From: an uncultured Bryobacteraceae bacterium | GTDB lineage: Bacteria > Acidobacteriota > Terriglobia > Bryobacterales > Bryobacteraceae | Assembly (NCBI GenBank): GCA_937920635.1 | Contig: CAKZUE010000043.1 | Span: 1 to 50,601 of the forward strand | Length of the DNA stretch: 50,601 nucleotides | Reading direction: 5' to 3' | Shown: positions 1,504 through 10,986 of the stretch, piece by piece | Numbering within the stretch: the first letter of the stretch is position 1 | Layout of the letters: each line of letters begins with the position of its first letter | Program-made: the position numbers and the translations under genes | Notes under the pieces: model-generated | The model's database searches: none | Seen by the model: the letters and a program-made list of their open reading frames with translations, nothing else | Told to the model about the DNA's origin: nothing

Positions 1504-1929
1504 CTACTTCAGTTGCATCTCCCCCAGCGCCGGGTCGCGCAGATCCACCCGCATCTCCTCCTGGCAGCACTGGCACCGCCCCGGCGACCAGGCGCGGATC
1601 GAACAGACATCGCACCAGTAGGTCACCACCAGGCGTTTTCCGTTGCGCCACACGAAGAGCGCGCGCTCATGGATCGGGTCCACCACAAAGCGGGAAGGCG
1701 CGCGGAACCGCCCCACGGCTTCGAAGTCCTCGTCCTTCAGCCGCGCGTCACGCAACACCGCCGTGGAAGGCGCGTCGGCTTCCAGCTCCACCACGCGCCC
1801 TTCTCTCGTGAGGATCGCCGGAGGCTGCGCACCGTCCTGGCGCAGCCGCCCGCGCACGCTCTGCTTGTCTTCGGCCCGCAACAGAAAGGCCGCCGCCGGC
1901 AGCAGAATCCAGTGTCTGCGCGAGATCAT
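1504..1929 (-). CDS. Small secreted Cys-cluster protein coupled to the P-type ATPase
   Basis: The 141-residue product begins MISRRHWILLPAAAFLLRAEDK, a typical short signal peptide, which is why this start is preferred to one 32 codons upstream that would run deep into the ATPase gene. The ATG overlaps the ATPase stop codon as ATGA, implying translational coupling. The C-terminal third contains five cysteines in the pattern CxxC-x9-CxCC (WCDVC ... RCQCC), which looks like a metal-binding or zinc-ribbon-like site. The rest appears to be a small beta-rich domain with no family I recognise. By position it may be an extracytoplasmic metal-binding partner of the ATPase. This role is inference; no enzymatic motif is visible. 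Confidence 0.7.
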   Translation of the reverse strand: MISRRHWILLPAAAFLLRAEDKQSVRGRLRQDGAQPPAILTREGRVVELEADAPSTAVLRDARLKDEDFEAVGRFRAPSRFVVDPIHERALFVWRNGKRLVVTYWCDVCSIRAWSPGRCQCCQEEMRVDLRDPALGEMQLK

Positions 1930-3974
1930 GTCCGTTTGCTTGGATGAGCCGTGGCACGCAGGAGTCGCAAACCGTTGAGCGTAACGATCAGCGTGGCGCC
2001 CGTGTCCGCCGCCACGGCCATCCACAGCGTCGCTTTGCCCGTGGCCGCCGCGGCCAGAAAGACGAGCTTCAGCCCCAGCGCAATGGCGATATTTTGCCGG
2101 ATCACCCGCAGCGCCCGCCGCGCATGCGCCACCAGAAAGGCCACCTTCTCCAGCGCCGCGCCCGTGACAATCACGTCGGCGCTCTCCTGCGCCGCTTCCG
2201 AAGACGGCGACGCGACGCTGATGCCTACTGCCGCGCGCTTCAACGCTTCCGCGTCCGCCACGCAGTCGCCCAGCATCGCCGCCGCACCTGTTTCCCGCTG
2301 AAGCCGCTCGATCTCTTGCGCCTTTTCCTCAGCCGAAAGCTCCGCCTGAAACTCCGTGATTCCCGCCGCCTCAGTGGCCGCCTGCGCCGCCGGCGCCGGA
2401 TCGGAGGCCAGCAGAACCACCCGCTCCACGCCCAGCTCTCTCAGCGTCTCCACATGACGCCGCGCCGCCTCCAGCGGCGCGTCACACCACGCCTCCAGCA
2501 CGCCGCTCCCCTGCCGGCTCGCTACGGTGCAGCCCTCTGCGGCGAGCGAGCCGATCTTCTCCGCTAGAGGGCGCGTCACTCCGCCCGCCGCCGCCCACTT
2601 CGGCGTCAATGGAATCCCGCCGCCCTGTCCCGCGCGCCACTGCTGCCATCGCCTCAACTCCCTTTCGTGCTCTTCGCTGAGAGATTCGGCGCGCGCCAGC
2701 CGCGGCTCGCCCTGCGTCAGGATGCCCGCTCGGTCCATGGCCAGCGCCTTCAATCGCCCCGCCGCCTCCAGAAACGCGCCGCCCTTCACGAGCACCCCCT
2801 GCCGCGCCGCGCTCGCCAACGCCGCCATCACCGTCACCGGCGTCGAAATCACAAACGCGCACGGGCAGGCGATCAGCAGCACCACCATCCCGTGGTACAG
2901 CCACTCGCTCCAGCCGCCAGCCCCGACGAGCGGAGGGATCACCGCCACCGCCGCCGCCAGCAGCAGCACTGCCGGCGTGTAGCGACGCGCAAACCGCTCC
3001 ACCAGCCGCTCGCTCTCCGACTTCCGGCTGCCCGATTCCTCCATCATCCGCAGCATCCGTTGCAGCCGCGTGTCGCGCGCCGCGCGCCTCACCTCCACCA
3101 GCAGCATGCCGCTCTGGTTCAGCGTGCCGGCGAACACTTCATCGCCCGCCCGCTTCTCCACGGCCACGGACTCCCCCGTCAGCGGCGACTGATCCACCAA
3201 CGATTCCCCTTCAAGCACCACGCCGTCGCAGGGGACGCGTTCGCCCGCCTTGACCCGCACGCGAGCACCCGGCCTCAGCGTCTCCGCTTCCACCCGGTGC
3301 TCGTGATCCCCATGCACCAGCCACGCCTGCGCGGGCATCAGCTCCAGCAGCCGCGCCACGCTCCGCCTCGCCCTCTCCAGGCTCATCGCCTCCAGCCGCC
3401 CCGCCAGTCCGTACAGAAACGCCAGCGTCGCGCCCTCCGCCCATTCCCCGAGCACCGCCGCGCCCGCCAGCGACAGTGCAACCAGCAGGTTCATGTCCGC
3501 TCGCGCGGCACGCAACGCCGCCCACGCCTTCCGCCAGAACAGGCTTGCCCCGGCGACGACTGACGCGAGATAACACGCCAGCGCCGCCGTTGGCATCGCA
3601 TGATGCCGTGCCGCCCCCGTGTGTCCATGCGCCAGCAGGGTCTCCACTACTGACCCGCCATGCCAGAGCTGCACTGCCATCCCCCCTGCCAGCAAAGCTC
3701 CACTCAGCCAAAGCGCAGGCCGCTGCCAGCTCCCTGCGCGCCCGGTTGCCGGACGCGCCGCCCAATTCTCACAGCACATTCCCGTGCTTGCCACCGCCGT
3801 CCGGATCGCCTCTTCCGTGGTCAGCTCCGGCGAGTACTCCACCTCCATCAGACCCCGTGCCACGTCGAAACGCAGATTTCTCACCCCCCTCACACGGCTC
3901 ACCTGCGAGCGCAGCAGAGACACCTCCTCCCCACAATCCATGCCCTGCACGCGAAGCCGGGCCTGTTTGTACAT
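1926..3974 (-). CDS. P1B-type heavy-metal ATPase with degenerate catalytic motifs
   Basis: This 682-residue protein has the full layout of a heavy-metal P-type ATPase: an N-terminal HMA domain (residues 5-65, with GMDCGEE, so only one of the usual two Cys), the first membrane helices, an actuator domain with TGES (266-269), and the metal-site helix with CPC (370-372). The cytoplasmic ATP-hydrolysing part is unusual. The phosphorylation motif DKTGTLT reads DRAGILT (414-420). The SxHP motif reads TRP (467-469). TGD reads ASD (523-525), and GDGxND reads GDCVAD (569-574). The aspartates are all kept while neighbouring invariant residues are changed, and the nucleotide-binding domain is short. The reading frame is open throughout. 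A good Shine-Dalgarno (GAGGAGT) precedes the ATG. Either it is a weak or altered pump, or a non-pumping metal sensor/transporter. Membrane location is clear; the metal is not, although CPC pumps usually carry Cu, Zn or Cd. Confidence 0.88.
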   Translation of the reverse strand: MYKQARLRVQGMDCGEEVSLLRSQVSRVRGVRNLRFDVARGLMEVEYSPELTTEEAIRTAVASTGMCCENWAARPATGRAGSWQRPALWLSGALLAGGMAVQLWHGGSVVETLLAHGHTGAARHHAMPTAALACYLASVVAGASLFWRKAWAALRAARADMNLLVALSLAGAAVLGEWAEGATLAFLYGLAGRLEAMSLERARRSVARLLELMPAQAWLVHGDHEHRVEAETLRPGARVRVKAGERVPCDGVVLEGESLVDQSPLTGESVAVEKRAGDEVFAGTLNQSGMLLVEVRRAARDTRLQRMLRMMEESGSRKSESERLVERFARRYTPAVLLLAAAVAVIPPLVGAGGWSEWLYHGMVVLLIACPCAFVISTPVTVMAALASAARQGVLVKGGAFLEAAGRLKALAMDRAGILTQGEPRLARAESLSEEHERELRRWQQWRAGQGGGIPLTPKWAAAGGVTRPLAEKIGSLAAEGCTVASRQGSGVLEAWCDAPLEAARRHVETLRELGVERVVLLASDPAPAAQAATEAAGITEFQAELSAEEKAQEIERLQRETGAAAMLGDCVADAEALKRAAVGISVASPSSEAAQESADVIVTGAALEKVAFLVAHARRALRVIRQNIAIALGLKLVFLAAAATGKATLWMAVAADTGATLIVTLNGLRLLRATAHPSKRT

Positions 3975-4038: not shown

Positions 4039-4404
4039 ATGACTCAGCATCGGATCCACCCCAATCACGAGCATATCCACGGGGAAGGATGCGGTCACTC
4101 CGCAATCCGCCACGGGGATCACATCGACTACCTCCATGATGGCTGTCTTCACACCATGCACGGCGATCACGCCGACGAATGCCAGATCGAGATCAGCGAG
4201 CGCAATCCAACTGTCTGCACGCCGGAACACTTGTGCGGCGGCCATCCAGCCGGCCATGTGCATGGCCCCGGCTGCGGTCACGAAGCAATGCCCCATGGGG
4301 ATCACACCGATTACCTCGTGAACGGCCACCTGCATCATTCGCACGAAGGCCATTGCGACGACCATGGCCCTGTAGAGGTACTGTTTGTGGCAACCCGCAG
4401 TTGA
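4039..4404 (+). CDS. Histidine-rich tandem-repeat metal-binding protein
   Basis: The 121-residue protein contains 25 histidines. It has two imperfect copies of a roughly 33-residue unit at residues 15-47 and 76-109, each reading approximately G-x-GCGH-x4-HGDHxDYL-x2-GxLH-x2-H. Between them is a Cys-containing linker with C60 and C66. There is no signal peptide, so it is probably cytoplasmic. Proteins with this HGDHxDYLxxGHLH pattern occur in many bacteria next to zinc or cadmium ATPases. A role in buffering or delivering Zn or a similar metal is inferred from composition and from the divergently transcribed ATPase at 3974. It starts at an ATG with a weak GGGAAG upstream. Confidence 0.82.
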   Translation: MTQHRIHPNHEHIHGEGCGHSAIRHGDHIDYLHDGCLHTMHGDHADECQIEISERNPTVCTPEHLCGGHPAGHVHGPGCGHEAMPHGDHTDYLVNGHLHHSHEGHCDDHGPVEVLFVATRS

Positions 4405-5444: not shown

Positions 5445-6278
5445 CTACCGCCTCTCGCGCAACCGCCGGGCGAACTCCGCGCCCCGCCGGAACTCTTCCT
5501 CCGGCAAGCCGCGCCCGACGTGTGATTTCAACCCCTGGAGCCGCTCCTCGAACAGTCCGATCGCCCGAACAATTTCGTCCCGGTTTGTTTCGACGATGTC
5601 CCGCCAGATCTCCCACCCGCTTAGCGACAGCCGCGTCATGTCCAGCAGGCCCGGCCCGGCGGCTTCTTCGACGCCCGGCCTGTCCGCCAGCGCGGCTGAA
5701 AGCGCCGTGGAAAGCATCTGCGGCAGGTGCGACGACAGCGCCACCGTGCGGTCGTGCTCCTCCGCGCTCATCACCCGCGGCTCCGCGCCGATGCGCTCGA
5801 TCCACGCGAGGAACTCGCGTGCGGCGGGCGTCTCCAGATCCTGAGTTCTCACGGGCGTCAGCAGGTACGGCCGCCCCCGGAACAGCTCCGCATCGGCCTC
5901 CTCCACGCCCCGCTTCTCCTTGCCCGCCATCGGATGCCCGCCGACAAAGAACGCGCCGCGCAGCCGCGTGCCAGCCTCGCAGATCCTGCGTTTGGTGCTG
6001 CCGGCGTCGGTCACCAGCGCGCCCGCGCGCGCCAGCCCGTCCAGCCGCGGGATCGTCTCCAGAATGGCGCGGATCGGCCCGGCCAGGTAAATCAGATCCG
6101 CGCGCGGCGCCGCGTCTTCCAGGCTTGCGCCTTCGTCGATCGCGCCCCGCCGCAGCGCCTTCTCGATCGTCTGCGGCGAACTGACTCCCACAATGCGGCC
6201 GCGGAATCCGGCGCTCTTCAGAGCCAGGCCGAACGAGCCGCCGATCAGCCCGACGCCGGCAATGACAACCGTTTCCAT
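5445..6278 (-). CDS. tyrA: Prephenate dehydrogenase
   Basis: The 277-residue enzyme oxidatively decarboxylates prephenate to 4-hydroxyphenylpyruvate in tyrosine synthesis. The N-terminal Rossmann motif GVGLIGGSFG (residues 8-17) binds the nicotinamide cofactor. DAGSTK and the GGHPMAGKEKRG segment carry the catalytic histidine typical of TyrA, and a helical dimerisation domain follows (SHLPQM, DMTRLSLSG). There is no fused chorismate mutase or ACT domain; the mutase is encoded separately two genes upstream. It is the last gene of the aromatic operon, 7 bases after the DAHP-synthase homologue. Confidence 0.92.
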   Translation of the reverse strand: METVVIAGVGLIGGSFGLALKSAGFRGRIVGVSSPQTIEKALRRGAIDEGASLEDAAPRADLIYLAGPIRAILETIPRLDGLARAGALVTDAGSTKRRICEAGTRLRGAFFVGGHPMAGKEKRGVEEADAELFRGRPYLLTPVRTQDLETPAAREFLAWIERIGAEPRVMSAEEHDRTVALSSHLPQMLSTALSAALADRPGVEEAAGPGLLDMTRLSLSGWEIWRDIVETNRDEIVRAIGLFEERLQGLKSHVGRGLPEEEFRRGAEFARRLRERR

Positions 6279-6285
6279 GAGGGGC

Positions 6286-7314
6286 TCAGAGGCTCCTTCC
6301 CATCGCCGCCGCCAGCGCCTTCAACTGCTTCACCAGCTCCAGGAACTGCGCCGGTTCAAGCGATTGCGCTCCCTCGGCCAGCACCTTCGAGGGATCCGGA
6401 TGCACGTCCAGCAGCAGTCCGTCGGCGCCCGCCGCCACGGCAGCCGCCGCCAGCGCGGGCGCCAGGTCGCGGCGGCCCGCGGCGCGGCAGGGATCGGCCA
6501 GCACCGGCAGGTGCGAGAGCTTGTGCAGCACCGGGACCGCCGTCACGTCCAGCGTGTTCTTCGTGTAGGACCCGTAGGTCCGCACGCCGCGCTCGCACAG
6601 CATCACGGCCTCGTTTCCACCCTCCAGAATCATGTCGGCCGAAACCAGCAGCTCCTGCACCGTCGCCGCCGCCCCGCGCTTGAGCAGAACCGGCTTGCCC
6701 GCCCGGCCCGCGGCGCGCAACAGCGGGTAGTTCTGCATGTTGCGCGAGCCGATCAGCAGCACGTCGGCGTGCTCTTCGACCACCGGCACATGGTTCGCCT
6801 CCGTCACTTCGCCCGCCAGGAACATCCCGAACGTCTCCGCCGCCCGCCGCATCAGCCGCAGCGCTTCGGCGTCCGGCGCCGTCAGGCTCAGCGGCGAAAG
6901 ATGCGCGCGCAGCCCGCCGGCGCGAAACAGCTTCGCTCCGCCGCGCGCCGCCAGTTCCGCGCAGCGGAACAACTGCTCCTCCCCTTCCACGCTGCCCGGT
7001 CCCGCCATCAGCGCCACGCGGCTCCCGCCGATCTCGGCTTCGCCCGCCCGCGCGCTCCGGAGCCGGATCACCGTCCGTTCCGCCTTCGCCGCGCGCCCGG
7101 CGCGCTGATACGGCGTCATCACGCGGTAGCACTCCATCACGCCCGGCATCACCTTGAATTCGTCCGGATCCACCAGCTCGGACGGTCCCACCGCGCCCAG
7201 CACCGTGTGCACCTCGCCCGTCGAACGGTGCACGTTGAAGTCCAGCCCGATGAGCTTCTCGATCACCGCCTCGATCTGCTCCTCGCGGGCGCCCTTCTCC
7301 ATGATGATGATCAT
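6286..7314 (-). CDS. aroF: Type I-beta DAHP synthase homologue lacking the canonical metal ligands
   Basis: The 342-residue protein has the architecture of type I-beta 3-deoxy-7-phosphoheptulonate synthase: an N-terminal ferredoxin-like regulatory domain (about 1-70) and a TIM barrel. IGSRNMQNYPLL, KPVLLKRG, LCERGVRT and SHLPVLADP are well kept. But the residues that bind the catalytic metal are all altered: AGPCSVE reads AGPGSVE (Cys to Gly107), DPSH reads DPCR (His to Arg277), EVHP reads DVHP (Glu to Asp303) and LSDG reads LAEG (Asp to Glu314). The substrate motif KPRTSP reads RAHLSP (136-141). The frame is intact and sits inside the operon, with its ATG overlapping the chorismate mutase stop. 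It may be catalytically dead and act as a regulatory or scaffold partner of AroQ, or catalyse a changed reaction. Confidence 0.82.
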   Translation of the reverse strand: MIIIMEKGAREEQIEAVIEKLIGLDFNVHRSTGEVHTVLGAVGPSELVDPDEFKVMPGVMECYRVMTPYQRAGRAAKAERTVIRLRSARAGEAEIGGSRVALMAGPGSVEGEEQLFRCAELAARGGAKLFRAGGLRAHLSPLSLTAPDAEALRLMRRAAETFGMFLAGEVTEANHVPVVEEHADVLLIGSRNMQNYPLLRAAGRAGKPVLLKRGAAATVQELLVSADMILEGGNEAVMLCERGVRTYGSYTKNTLDVTAVPVLHKLSHLPVLADPCRAAGRRDLAPALAAAAVAAGADGLLLDVHPDPSKVLAEGAQSLEPAQFLELVKQLKALAAAMGRSL

Positions 7315-7613
7315 CGTTCCTGCTCCTTGCGCAGCCGCTCCCGCTGGAGCAGGCGCATCTCGTCGATGACGCGCTCGAACAGCCGCCGCACGGCGCTCTC
7401 CGAGAGCGGTCCGCGGTTGTTCGACGTGACGTTTTGGAACACTTCCTCTTCCCGCTTCGGTTCGTACACCGGCAGCTCCGCCGCCTTCTTGACGTCGCCG
7501 ATCTGCGCCGCCACCAGCGCGCGCCGGTTCAGCAGATCGAGGATCTGCAAATCCAGCACGTCGATCTGCTTCCGCAGCTCGTCCAGCGCCGCCTGCGCCT
7601 CCTCCGCCGTCAT
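7311..7613 (-). CDS. aroQ: Chorismate mutase, AroQ type
   Basis: A 100-residue all-helical AroQ chorismate mutase that converts chorismate to prephenate. Visible active-site elements are the first-helix Arg in DELRKQID, the LLNRRALVAAQIG helix with its Arg, the following VKK lysine, the YEPKREEEV segment (family: DxxRE), and a Gln near the end in MRLLQRE. Unlike the next gene, nothing essential appears lost. The start at 7613 is chosen because it overlaps the trpA stop codon as ATGA; the longer upstream frame lies inside trpA. Its stop overlaps the DAHP-synthase start, so the two are probably translated together. Confidence 0.92.
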   Translation of the reverse strand: MTAEEAQAALDELRKQIDVLDLQILDLLNRRALVAAQIGDVKKAAELPVYEPKREEEVFQNVTSNNRGPLSESAVRRLFERVIDEMRLLQRERLRKEQER

Positions 7614-8407
7614 GCGGTTCCGTTCAGCTCCCTGCACAGCCTCTCCAGCCTTGTCTCCAGTTCCGCATCCGCGCTTTCGTGCACCACGCGCATCACCGCG
7701 CTGCCCACCACCGCGCCGTCCGCGTAGCGTCCGACCTCCTCGACATGCGCGCGTTTCGAGATGCCAAAGCCCACCGCCAGCGGCAGAGCCGTGCGCGCGC
7801 GCAGCCGCCGCGCCAGCTCCTCCACGCCTCCGCTCACCGATTCGCGCGTGCCGGTGACGCCCGTGCGCGACACCACATATACAAAGCCGCTCGAATACCG
7901 CGCCACCAGCTCCAGCCTCCGGTCCGTGCTCGTCGGCGCCGCCAGGAAGATCCGGTCCAGCCCGTGCCTCTGCATCGCCTCCACCGGCTCTTCCGCCTCC
8001 TCCACGCTCAGGTCGGTGATCAGCACGCCGTCCACGCCCGCCGCGCGCGCGTCGCGGCACAGGCGGTCGAAACCGTAGCGCATCAGCGGATTGATGTAGC
8101 TGAACAGCACGATCGCCATTTCGCTGCGGCGGCGGATCTCGGCGGCGCTCTCGAGCACCCGCTCCACCGTCGTGCCCGCCTTCAACGCGCGGTCTGAAGC
8201 CTCCTGGATCACGGGTCCGTCGGCGATCGGGTCCGAAAACGGCACGCCGAGCTCCAGGATGTCCGCCCCGCCGCGCTCCAGCGCCAGCGCCAGCGCCGGC
8301 GTCCGTTCCGGGCGGGGATCGCCCACGGTGAGATAGGTGATCAGCGCCGTCCGTCCGGCTGCGCGCGCCGCCGCGAACCGTTCCCTGATGCGTTCACTCG
8401 GCTCCAT
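7610..8407 (-). CDS. trpA: Tryptophan synthase alpha chain
   Basis: The 265-residue TIM-barrel protein cleaves indole-3-glycerol phosphate to indole and glyceraldehyde 3-phosphate and passes indole to TrpB. The catalytic pair is present in [14 protein letters not shown] (Glu52 and Asp63). SRTGVTG and the late AVGFGIS phosphate-binding segments are also present. Its start overlaps the end of trpB by 14 bases, consistent with coupled production of the alpha-beta complex. Confidence 0.96.
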
Positions 8408-9614
8408 TGTCTGCGTCCAGTTCTGGAAAATTCTCGCGGTAAATATCCGTGTCTTTATCGCCGCGGCCGGACAAATTGACCAGGAAAATCCGGCCTTTCG
8501 CCTCCGGCGCGCGGCGGATCGCTTCCGCCACCGCGTGGGCGCTCTCGAGCGCCGGAATGATGCCCTCCGCCCGCGACAGCCGCCGCGCGGCCTCCAGCGC
8601 CTGCCGGTCCGACGCCGCCACGTACTCGGCGCGCCCCTGATCGTGCAGCCACGCGTGCTCCGGGCCCACCAATGCGTAATCGAGTCCCGCCGAAACCGAG
8701 TGCGTCAGCAGCACCTGCCCGTCCCCGTTTTGCAGCAGGTAGCTGTAAGCCCCTTGCAGCACGCCCGGCGAGCCGCCGGCAAACCGCGCCGCGTGCTCGC
8801 CCGGCTCGATCTTCCTGCCGCCCGCTTCCACGCCGATCAATTGCACGCGCTCATCCGGGATAAATGCCGTGAAAATTCCGATCGCATTCGACCCTCCGCC
8901 CACGCAGGCGATCACCGCGTCGGGCAGCCTCCCCGCGCGTTCCAGAATCTGGCGCCGCGCCTCTTCGCCGGTCACGCGGTGAAATTCGCGCACCATCATC
9001 GGGTAGGGATGCGCGCCCAGCGCCGAGCCCAGCAGGTAATGCGTCGATTCGACGTTGGTCACCCAGTCCCGCATCGCTTCGCTCACAGCGTCCTTGAGCG
9101 TCCGGCTGCCCGTCTTCACGCCCACCACCTTCGCCCCCAGCAGCCGCATGCGGAACACGTTGAGCCGCTGCCGCCGCATGTCCTCTTCGCCCATGTAGAC
9201 GACGCACTCCATCCCGAACAGCGCGCAAACGCTCGCCGTCGCCACCCCGTGCTGACCCGCGCCCGTCTCGGCGATGATCCGCCGCTTGCCCATGCGCCGC
9301 GCCAGCAGGATCTGCCCCAGGCAGTTGTTGATCTTGTGCGCCCCCGTGTGCAGCAGGTCTTCGCGTTTCAGGAAAATCCGCGCGCCGCCCAGCTCTTCGC
9401 TCAGCCGCCGGGCTTCATAGAGCGGCGTCGGCCGCCCCGCGTACGTCTCGAGCAGCTCCTTCAGCTCGCGCTGAAACGCCTCGTCGCGTTGCGCCTCATA
9501 AAAGGCCCGCTCCAGCTCTTCGAGCGGCCCCATGAGCGTTTCGGGCACATAGCGCCCGCCGTATGGACCGAAGTGGCCCCGCTCGTCCGGCCCCTGCATG
9601 GTCTTTTCCGTCAT
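8394..9614 (-). CDS. trpB: Tryptophan synthase beta chain
   Basis: The 406-residue PLP enzyme condenses indole with serine to make tryptophan. The PLP lysine is K94 in HTGAHKINN. The catalytic glutamate lies in AETGAGQHG, and the phosphate loop is GGGSNAIG. The N-terminal [13 protein letters not shown] is typical of TrpB1, the TrpA-associated form. The start at 9614 (ATGACGGAAAAG) is used because it overlaps the trpF stop as ATGA and gives the standard length; a 111-codon longer frame runs antisense-like through trpF. Confidence 0.97.
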
Positions 9615-10201
9615 TCCGTCTCCCGCGCCGCGCGCACAAAAGCGCGCACCTTTTCCGGATCCTTGCGGCCCGGCGCGCTCTCCAGTCTCGAACACGCATC
9701 CACGCCCCACGGCCTCGCCGCGCGGATCGCTTCTCCTACATTGTCGGGCCCCAGCCCGCCCGCCAGCACGATCCGGCCCGGCAGCCCCGCCGCCAGAGAC
9801 CAGTCGAACGTGCGGCCCGTGCCTCCGCGCTGCGCGCCTGCCGGCGCGTCGAGCAAAAACGCTTCCGCCTCGAAATGTTCCATCGCCCGCCGCACGTCCG
9901 GGCCCGCCTCCAGCGCCTTCCACCACCGCAGCCGCGGCACGCCGCACCCGCCGTGCAGTTGCGCCACCTCCACGCCCGCCTCCGCGGCGATTTCCTCGAT
10001 CCGCTCCGCCGTCTCGTCCACGAACACCCCCACCGCCAGCACGTTGCCGGGAATCCTCTCGATGATCCGCGCCGCCCGTGCGGGCTCGATATAGCGCGGG
10101 CTGCGCGGCCAGAAGTTGAATCCCAGCGCGTCGGCGCCCGCGTCGCAGGCCGCCAGCGCGTCTTCCAGCGCCGTGATGCCGCAGATCTTGATGAGCGTCA
10201 C
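9611..10201 (-). CDS. trpF: Phosphoribosylanthranilate isomerase
   Basis: The 196-residue TIM barrel catalyses the Amadori rearrangement of phosphoribosylanthranilate. The general base Cys7 (IKICGIT) and general acid Asp118 (FLLDA) are present, as are QLHG, GGTG and the phosphate-binding LAGGL. The usual SSGVE motif reads CSRLE here, a minor divergence. Translation appears to start at GTG (10201), which overlaps the trpC stop as GTGA. Confidence 0.94.
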
Positions 10202-10986
10202 GAGCCGCGCAACTCCTCGATGGCCCGCTTCGGATCGCCGCTCTTCATCAGATGCTCGCCCACCAGGAACGCCTGATACCCGGCGGCCAGCAGCCTCTCC
10301 ACATCCGCCCGGCCATGGATGCCGCTTTCGGCCACGCGCACGGCATCCGCAGGAAGCCTTGCGGCGAGCCGCTCCGACGTCTCCAGGTTCACCTCGAACG
10401 TCCGCAGGTCGCGGTTGTTCACGCCGATCAGGTCCGCCCCCGCTTCCAGGGCTTTGTCGAGATCCGCGTCATCGTGCACTTCCACCAGCGCCGCCATGCC
10501 ATAGTGTTCCGCCACGCGCCGGAACTGTTCGATCTGCTTCGCCGTCAGGATGGCGGCGATCAGCAGCACCGCATCGGCGCCCGCCGCCGCCGCTTCCACC
10601 ACGTCGATCTCGTCGATGGTGAAGTCCTTGCGCAGCACCGGCAGCGGAGCCGTGGCGCGCGCCGTCTTCAGATCGCCCAGCGATCCCTGGAAAAAATCGC
10701 GGTCCGTGAGCACCGACAACGCCGCCGCCCCGCCCGCGAAATAGGCCCGCGCCTGCGCACCCGGGTTGAAGTCTTCGCTCAGCACGCCGCGGCTTGGACT
10801 CGCTTTCTTGATCTCGGCGATCACCGCCGGCTGCCGGCGCAGCAGGGCTGCGCGGAAGCCGCGCCGCTGGCTCTTCTGGAACGCGGCCGTCTGCTCAAGG
10901 CTGCGCCTCAGCTCCAGCTTTTCCGCGACTTCCGCCTTCTTTCTTTCGACAATGCGGGCAAGAATATCGGGCAGCGTCGATTCCAT
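10198..10986 (-). CDS. trpC: Indole-3-glycerol phosphate synthase
   Basis: The 262-residue enzyme closes the indole ring in tryptophan synthesis. [11 protein letters not shown] contains the catalytic/substrate lysine (K60), LRKDF the second lysine, and [10 protein letters not shown] and AESGI the C-terminal substrate elements. It is the first gene of the trp-aro block; trpE, trpG and trpD are not in the window. A 48-base gap separates it from the upstream Gfo/Idh gene on the same strand. I see no convincing trp leader peptide or attenuator in that gap. Confidence 0.96.

Follow-up and report, generated by a model that had tools for sequence, protein, structure and literature searches.

The type I-beta DAHP synthase of T. 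maritima (1RZM/3PG9) is controlled through its ferredoxin-like (FXD) domain: according to PMC5526877, Phe or Tyr binds to this domain and restricts access to the active site. The protein described here is encoded in a 50,601-nucleotide stretch of DNA from an uncultured Bryobacteraceae bacterium (contig CAKZUE010000043.1, positions 1 to 50,601), which we call the window. It has the same two domains end to end as the T. maritima enzyme, the FXD family PF18152 being common to both, but has lost its metal site together with part of its substrate site. Mycobacterium and Corynebacterium provide a second related arrangement, a complex between chorismate mutase and type II DAHP synthase (PMC4281200, PMC6435475). 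The pairing of a small AroQ with a DAHP-synthase fold recurs in the window, where the two may share feedback control. However, the fold here is of type I-beta, not the type II of an MtDS-MtCM-kind complex, and has no metal site. The AroQ-delta subclass is marked by a C-terminal Arg-Gly dyad (PMC4281200), and inspection by eye of the C-terminal part of the AroQ encoded in the window showed none. Because the metal and substrate site that define a DAHP synthase and these features of the AroQ-delta complex were not found, we class the window protein as a probable regulatory pseudoenzyme. The nearest relatives of the window AroQ are not of the AroQ-delta kind but are mutase domains that form fusions with type I-beta enzymes, the closest solved ones being those of B. 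subtilis (AroA(G)), Listeria, Geobacillus and Thermus. In such fusions the mutase domain regulates the synthase (PMC5526877). The fused synthase is active and is the regulated part, whereas the window protein has lost its site and carries an FXD domain of its own. A precedent for a dead enzyme relative that serves as a regulatory subunit is HisZ of the short-form ATP phosphoribosyltransferase; its role resembles the one proposed here, but its fold and pathway differ and its complex is proven.

The gene (dahp) lies in an operon with the order trpC-trpF-trpB-trpA-aroQ-dahp-tyrA (Table 1). Its reading frame has no internal stops, and the product belongs to the type I-beta family over the full barrel, scoring 350.7 bits against PRK08673 (cut-off 335) and 274.7 bits against TIGR01361 (cut-off 267.75). 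T. maritima 1RZM aligns with it along the entire length (E 1e-80). The dahp ATG and the aroQ stop overlap by 4 nt (7311-7314), bearing out the coupling to aroQ described in an earlier note on this DNA. The closest titled relatives are Bryobacteraceae or Bryobacterales records. One record (L054), 91% identical to the window protein, bears the title Arcobacter sp.; the other close relatives being Bryobacteraceae, its genome is probably mislabelled.

Table 1. Features of the dahp operon and of the altered pocket, in window coordinates
Feature	Position	Strand	Basis
Putative DAHP-synthase-like pseudoenzyme, 342 aa	6286..7314	(-)	PRK08673, TIGR01361, PF00793 + PF18152
N-terminal ferredoxin-like (FXD) regulatory domain, residues 1-66	7117..7314	(-)	PF18152, 66.2 bits
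Barrel domain, residues 96-335, eroded pocket	6310..7029	(-)	PF00793 match at residues 96-333
Codon 107, Gly for metal-binding Cys	6994..6996	(-)	Alignment to 1RZM (C102)
Codons 136-141, RAHLSP for KPRTSP (PEP/E4P loop)	6892..6909	(-)	Alignment to 1RZM
Codon 277, Arg for metal-binding His	6484..6486	(-)	Alignment to 1RZM (H272)
Codon 303, Asp for metal-binding Glu	6406..6408	(-)	Alignment to 1RZM (E298)
Codon 314, Glu for metal-binding Asp	6373..6375	(-)	Alignment to 1RZM (D309)
tyrA, prephenate dehydrogenase	5445..6278	(-)	Pfam/NCBIfam family match
aroQ, chorismate mutase	7311..7613	(-)	Pfam PF01817
trpA	7610..8407	(-)	Named by eye from sequence and place
trpB	8394..9614	(-)	Named by eye; start set at internal Met of ORF
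trpF	9611..10201	(-)	Named by eye from sequence and place
trpC	10198..10986	(-)	Named by eye from sequence and place

The barrels of 1RZM and the window protein align without gaps at a numbering offset of +5, which rules out an alignment shift. T. maritima C102, H272, E298 and D309, which we take to be the metal ligands, fall on G107, R277, D303 and E314. These four replacements, like the change of KPRTSP to RAHLSP, had been claimed in the earlier note and held when the window letters were re-read by script. According to PMC6362186, the corresponding Cys, His, Glu and Asp are the metal ligands in a type I-beta enzyme, and every DAHPS reported so far is a metalloenzyme. When 14 metal, PEP and E4P positions were mapped from the same source onto the window protein, eight held a non-canonical residue: the four metal positions (G/R/D/E for Cys/His/Glu/Asp) and positions 136, 138, 139 and 187, in the KPRT loop and elsewhere among the PEP/E4P residues. 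R131, G189, S190, R191, K212 and R242 are kept or acceptable, Ser at 190 being present in canonical enzymes too. The same 14 positions are near-invariant across 113 intact orthologues (position 139 is S or T), so the eight changes exceed chance. Loss of the catalytic residues, as expected of a regulatory pseudoenzyme, is thus found in the window protein, and loss of catalysis is well supported by the aligned sequences. A sequencing or assembly error is ruled out, the identical altered site being present in five genomes of the window's genus, two of them on single contigs.

Conservation outside the pocket is uneven. The earlier note had called both the rest of the barrel and the regulatory domain well conserved; this is right for the latter, which keeps 15 of the 17 FXD positions that are at least 95% conserved in intact orthologues, but not for the barrel, in which 36 of 112 such positions are changed. 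The linker keeps three of eight.

The reaction itself is probably catalysed by other proteins of the same cell. By family match the genome encodes two further DAHP synthases, one of type I-alpha (L001) and one of type II (L004), both on contigs other than the window's, as well as KdsA (L002). Read by eye, L001 and L004 have the usual active-site motifs of their types. Family match and motifs together make an active enzyme for the same reaction elsewhere in the genome probable. The earlier note had advised looking for a second DAHP synthase, the absence of which, combined with measurable activity of this protein, would have spoken against a dead enzyme; with two found, that objection falls away. 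A search of the window's genome returned no intact type I-beta paralogue, so a hetero-oligomer with such a paralogue is impossible there and cannot be the general reason for keeping the gene. Each of the other four genomes of the genus has two matches, the first of which was read. Type I-beta paralogues do occur in some other eroded genomes, and all 17 that were read are canonical CHED (the letters at the four metal positions, in order). The aroQ gene is the sole PF01817 match of the window's genome, and of 15 of the 17 altered genomes searched. Six of the seven polar active-site residues of the CM_2 fold named for B. subtilis in PMC5526877 are identical in a gap-free alignment and the Asp47 position holds Glu; AroQ is therefore probably the working chorismate mutase.

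Erosion of the metal site extends well beyond the window's genus. Among 200 genomes of the order, a first pass gave 130 orthologues whose loci were read: 112 were CHED, one was truncated (CH--, counted as intact) and 17 were altered. Wherever the retrieved sequence was long enough to show them, the neighbouring genes were the same, a few rearranged loci apart. The altered set comprises GRDE in the five genomes of the window's genus; GHDE (two), CHDE (one), SREE (one) and PHDD (three) in the seven genomes of the nearest genus; and SRDE, AQEE, SNED, SHED and CHEE in one genome each. Of the 70 genomes with no listed orthologue, 53 were followed through tyrA and 15 through trpA, which yielded four more strongly eroded orthologues (G156, G148, G066 and G125). 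Altogether, 21 of the 134 readable orthologues of the trpCFBA-aroQ-dahp-tyrA operon have an altered metal site, ranging from a single substitution to a half-deleted barrel, although three weak cases (G014 SHED, G121 CHEE, G026 CHDE) may still be active. At the far end, the G156 orthologue (L331 2100-2825) has 236 aa, with much of the barrel deleted, a recognisable FXD domain and its place between aroQ and tyrA retained. In 26 genomes tyrA follows aroQ with no gene between. Ten further pieces cut by contig ends or frameshifts stand outside the 134 (G078, G129, G146, G147, G150, G151, G171, G185, G191, G197); they are canonical at every readable metal position, G171 having Ser at 138. Thirteen genomes were left unassigned (G036, G082, G086, G095, G107, G139, G142, G157, G163, G164, G174, G180, G199), and the remaining 17 of the 200 belong to other families of the order, outside the census.

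On the best trpA+trpB tree, which excludes dahp itself (151 genomes, 125 scored with the gene), the eroded state required eight changes, gains or losses, by parsimony; genomes neither eroded nor gene-less were scored intact there, including G129, G146, G150, G171, G185 and G191, and also G082, whose gene was not seen. The tree of dahp itself gave five changes for the first 17 eroded genomes. The pocket decays differently lineage by lineage. Among the orthologues measured, the 4-nt aroQ-dahp overlap is common in eroded ones (14/17) and infrequent in intact ones (14/106; starts set by alignment, kinship ignored), which suggests a tighter coupling of the two genes in eroded lineages.

A similar alteration was seen outside the order. 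A Lachnospiraceae type I-beta DAHP synthase (L117 8001-9002) has GDQG at the metal positions and adjoins a probable prephenate dehydratase, judged by eye; a type I-alpha-like gene truncated at a contig end is present in its genome as well. In that genus 32 of 42 genomes had a match and 20 loci were read, of which the 19 besides L117 were all canonical. Among the loci read, GDQG is thus confined to one genome, and a second eroded lineage in Lachnospiraceae was rejected.

We consider it somewhat better than an even prospect that the window protein is a regulatory pseudoenzyme descended from a DAHP synthase of type I-beta, probably an aromatic-amino-acid sensor that acts on the AroQ chorismate mutase. 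Once other enzymes had taken over catalysis, the barrel would have been released from that task and would have stayed on to support the FXD domain, the binding site of Tyr or Phe in T. maritima. The target of the protein, a less certain step than the scaffold role, would be AroQ, encoded directly upstream; a dead DAHP synthase might thereby report the level of Tyr or Phe to chorismate mutase, the branch-point enzyme. The sensor domain is the likeliest reason for keeping a protein without its catalytic site, and a fairly supported one; action on AroQ is likely.

Retention of the sensor is indicated by the rates at which the two domains evolve. Within the window's genus, dN/dS was 0.145 for dahp, compared with 0.112 for trpA, 0.124 for aroQ and 0.220 for tyrA, and within dahp it was 0.036 for the FXD domain versus 0.157 for the barrel. 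Purifying selection, a further property expected of a regulatory pseudoenzyme, is therefore present in the genus, and a recent pseudogene is ruled out there. In the six intact groups measured the gene is more constrained still (0.022-0.110). Divergence of the FXD domain was below that of the barrel in 91 of 136 eroded pairs, including all 10 of the window's genus, versus 672 of 6216 pairs of intact orthologues (pairs being non-independent). On the fixed trp tree the FXD:barrel ratio was 0.31 on eroded branches versus 1.34 elsewhere, a value as low being reached by 1 of 20000 random branch sets. Expressed relative to trpA+trpB branch lengths, the barrel rate was 5.26 on eroded branches versus 0.87 elsewhere, about six times higher and matched by 0 of 20000 random sets, in tests that treat branches as exchangeable and may overstate branch lengths for the barrels with the strongest erosion. 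By group it was 3.17 in the genus, 2.77 in the neighbouring genus and 7.03 in the rest. The FXD rate was 0.90 in the genus, 1.13 in the neighbouring genus and 2.03 in the other eroded lineages. A slowing of the FXD domain was rejected, its rate on all eroded branches being 1.61 versus 1.17 elsewhere; the ratio is inverted because the barrel is faster. As judged from these rates, constraint on the sensor domain has stayed close to its former level in the two nearest genera and has relaxed in the other eroded lineages, whereas constraint on the barrel has been lifted in every group.

Site by site, we took the positions with a conservation of 95% or more among intact orthologues and asked how often eroded orthologues retain them: the share is 95% for the FXD domain (17 positions), 81% for the linker (8), 78% for the barrel (99) and 46% for the ligand site (13). 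H29 and S31 of the FXD domain, presumably Tyr-binding in the T. maritima enzyme, are present in all 17 eroded rows aligned and are readable in the four further eroded orthologues.

The same data bear on whether the gene is simply on its way out, selection having relaxed after redundancy and operon position alone having preserved it. Such a course would accommodate the 26 genomes with aroQ and tyrA directly adjacent (G047, among them, has a type II enzyme), the large deletion in G156, the sixfold acceleration of the barrel and the somewhat faster FXD domain outside the two nearest genera. It sits poorly with the low dN/dS, particularly of the FXD domain, with an FXD pace close to the old one in the genus and neighbouring genus, and with the presence of dahp in 5/5 and 7/7 of the genomes searched in these two genera. 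We regard it as unlikely.

Evidence for AroQ as the partner came from covariation with the presence of dahp. Positions were retained when more than 85% conserved with dahp and less than 40% conserved without it, dahp having been seen in all 133 genomes counted as having the gene. Three of 34 AroQ positions passed (Y50, R81 and D84), compared with 0/95 in TyrA, 0/81 in TrpB and 1/118 in TrpA, the other neighbours screened. The three residues are kept in 21 of 21 eroded genomes and in 128 of the 133 with dahp; among the 26 genomes without it, Y50 is found in seven, R81 in eight and D84 in four. Independent-pair tests gave a median p of 0.031 for D84, uncorrected for the 34 positions screened, and values short of significance for Y50 (p 0.25) and R81 (p 0.125). 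Since aroQ stands without dahp in 26 genomes, AroQ has no general need of it. Covariation thus points to AroQ as the partner, short of proof, and the window protein may work like the actinobacterial DAHP synthase-chorismate mutase partnerships or the fused AroQ-DAHPS enzymes (PMC4281200, PMC6435475 and PMC5526877).

A small clade stands apart in both proteins. The five genomes that have dahp but no AroQ D84 are the same five in which FXD S31 has become Val, and they form one clade on the dahp tree. In these loci (L189, L264, L183, L258 and L261) AroQ has none of Y50, R81 and D84, a pattern that would fit a joint uncoupling of the sensor and the mutase.

Another potential partner is the type II DAHP synthase, which is present in all 21 eroded genomes and in 41 of the 113 with an intact orthologue. 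For the first 17 eroded genomes the contrast is 17/17 versus 41/113 (Fisher 2.4e-7, kinship ignored); type I-alpha enzymes occur in 8/17 versus 8/113. Eight random dahp-bearing genomes would all be type II-positive with p = 0.0038 (from 64/125, a rough figure that ignores kinship). Independent-pair tests never ran in the opposite direction, although informative pairs were few and significance was not reached; type II as the sole cause of erosion was set aside on this ground. Because 41 intact genomes carry a type II enzyme too, it is at most permissive for erosion. Under a related alternative, the pseudoenzyme would partner a type II (or type I-alpha) DAHP synthase, its FXD domain lending Tyr/Phe feedback to an enzyme encoded elsewhere. 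The 21/21 co-occurrence fits, as does the fact that actinobacterial type II enzymes act in complex (PMC6435475). However, the partner known for type II in that source is chorismate mutase, the genes are on separate contigs in the window's genome, and the covarying residues lie in AroQ, in a screen that covered AroQ, TyrA, TrpB and TrpA. We hold this partnership to be quite unlikely.

A sensor acting on AroQ, if generalised, would mean that in Bryobacteraceae-like bacteria a feedback-controlled DAHP synthase has repeatedly been turned into a non-catalytic aromatic-amino-acid sensor that controls an adjacently encoded chorismate mutase, feedback having moved from the first step to the branch point, with the sensor retained and the enzyme left to decay. 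This broader proposition is tentative, and we put it at less than even.

The altered residues, whose conservation among relatives the earlier note had proposed to check, turned out to be fixed in the window's genus: no variation was seen at any of the 14 pocket positions, whereas 178 of 240 barrel positions are invariant. The pocket in this genus may still bind something, given this invariance and the persistence of R131, R191, K212 and R242, the four basic residues of the PEP site. A novel reaction that needs no metal, or a pocket that has come to hold a different ligand, would explain both, at least for this genus, and would also suit the PHDD trio, which agrees at 13 of 14 pocket positions (background 210/240). 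On the other hand, the GHDE pair agrees at just nine of 14 (background 167/240), and other eroded lineages alter or delete the same residues differently. We therefore give such a new function little weight. The earlier note had left the choice between a dead-enzyme regulatory subunit and a new aldol-type reaction. The former stands as far as sequence goes, with two other DAHP synthases in the genome, lineage-specific decay of the pocket and a barrel that has sped up in the genus while the FXD domain has not; the latter is disfavoured because most eroded lineages alter the pocket in their own way and one barrel is largely deleted, though less so for the window's genus with its fixed pocket. That the protein has kept DAHP synthase activity, either by working without a metal or by rebuilding the metal site, is highly improbable even though it passes the NCBIfam cut-offs and its acidic D303 and E314 might bind metal, for Cys and His are both gone, as are the E4P-binding R138 and T/S139, and all DAHPSs reported are metalloenzymes according to PMC6362186.

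A limited literature search found no report of a metal-less DAHP synthase of this kind. If the sensor acting on AroQ is real, these bacteria would show, at one and the same place in the operon, the natural stages by which an enzyme turns into a regulator: first intact, then with single substitutions, finally with half of its barrel deleted. The series would also frame a testable general question: after catalysis has become redundant, can an allosteric domain come to control a different enzyme encoded nearby? On the practical side, automatic annotation calls a probably dead protein a DAHP synthase, as family cut-offs are passed, and pathway reconstructions of these bacteria may therefore count one enzyme too many.

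Elsewhere in the window, a heavy-metal P-type ATPase-like protein (1926-3974, (-)) carries, by eye, the motifs DRAGI and GDCVAD, with TGE and CPC kept. We take these motifs to be the sites of the DKTGT phosphorylation motif and of GDGxND in P-type ATPases, respectively, and the protein is possibly a second degenerate enzyme in the window. Near its gene lies a small reading frame (4039-4404, (+)), very rich in His, Gly and Cys and made of two similar halves.
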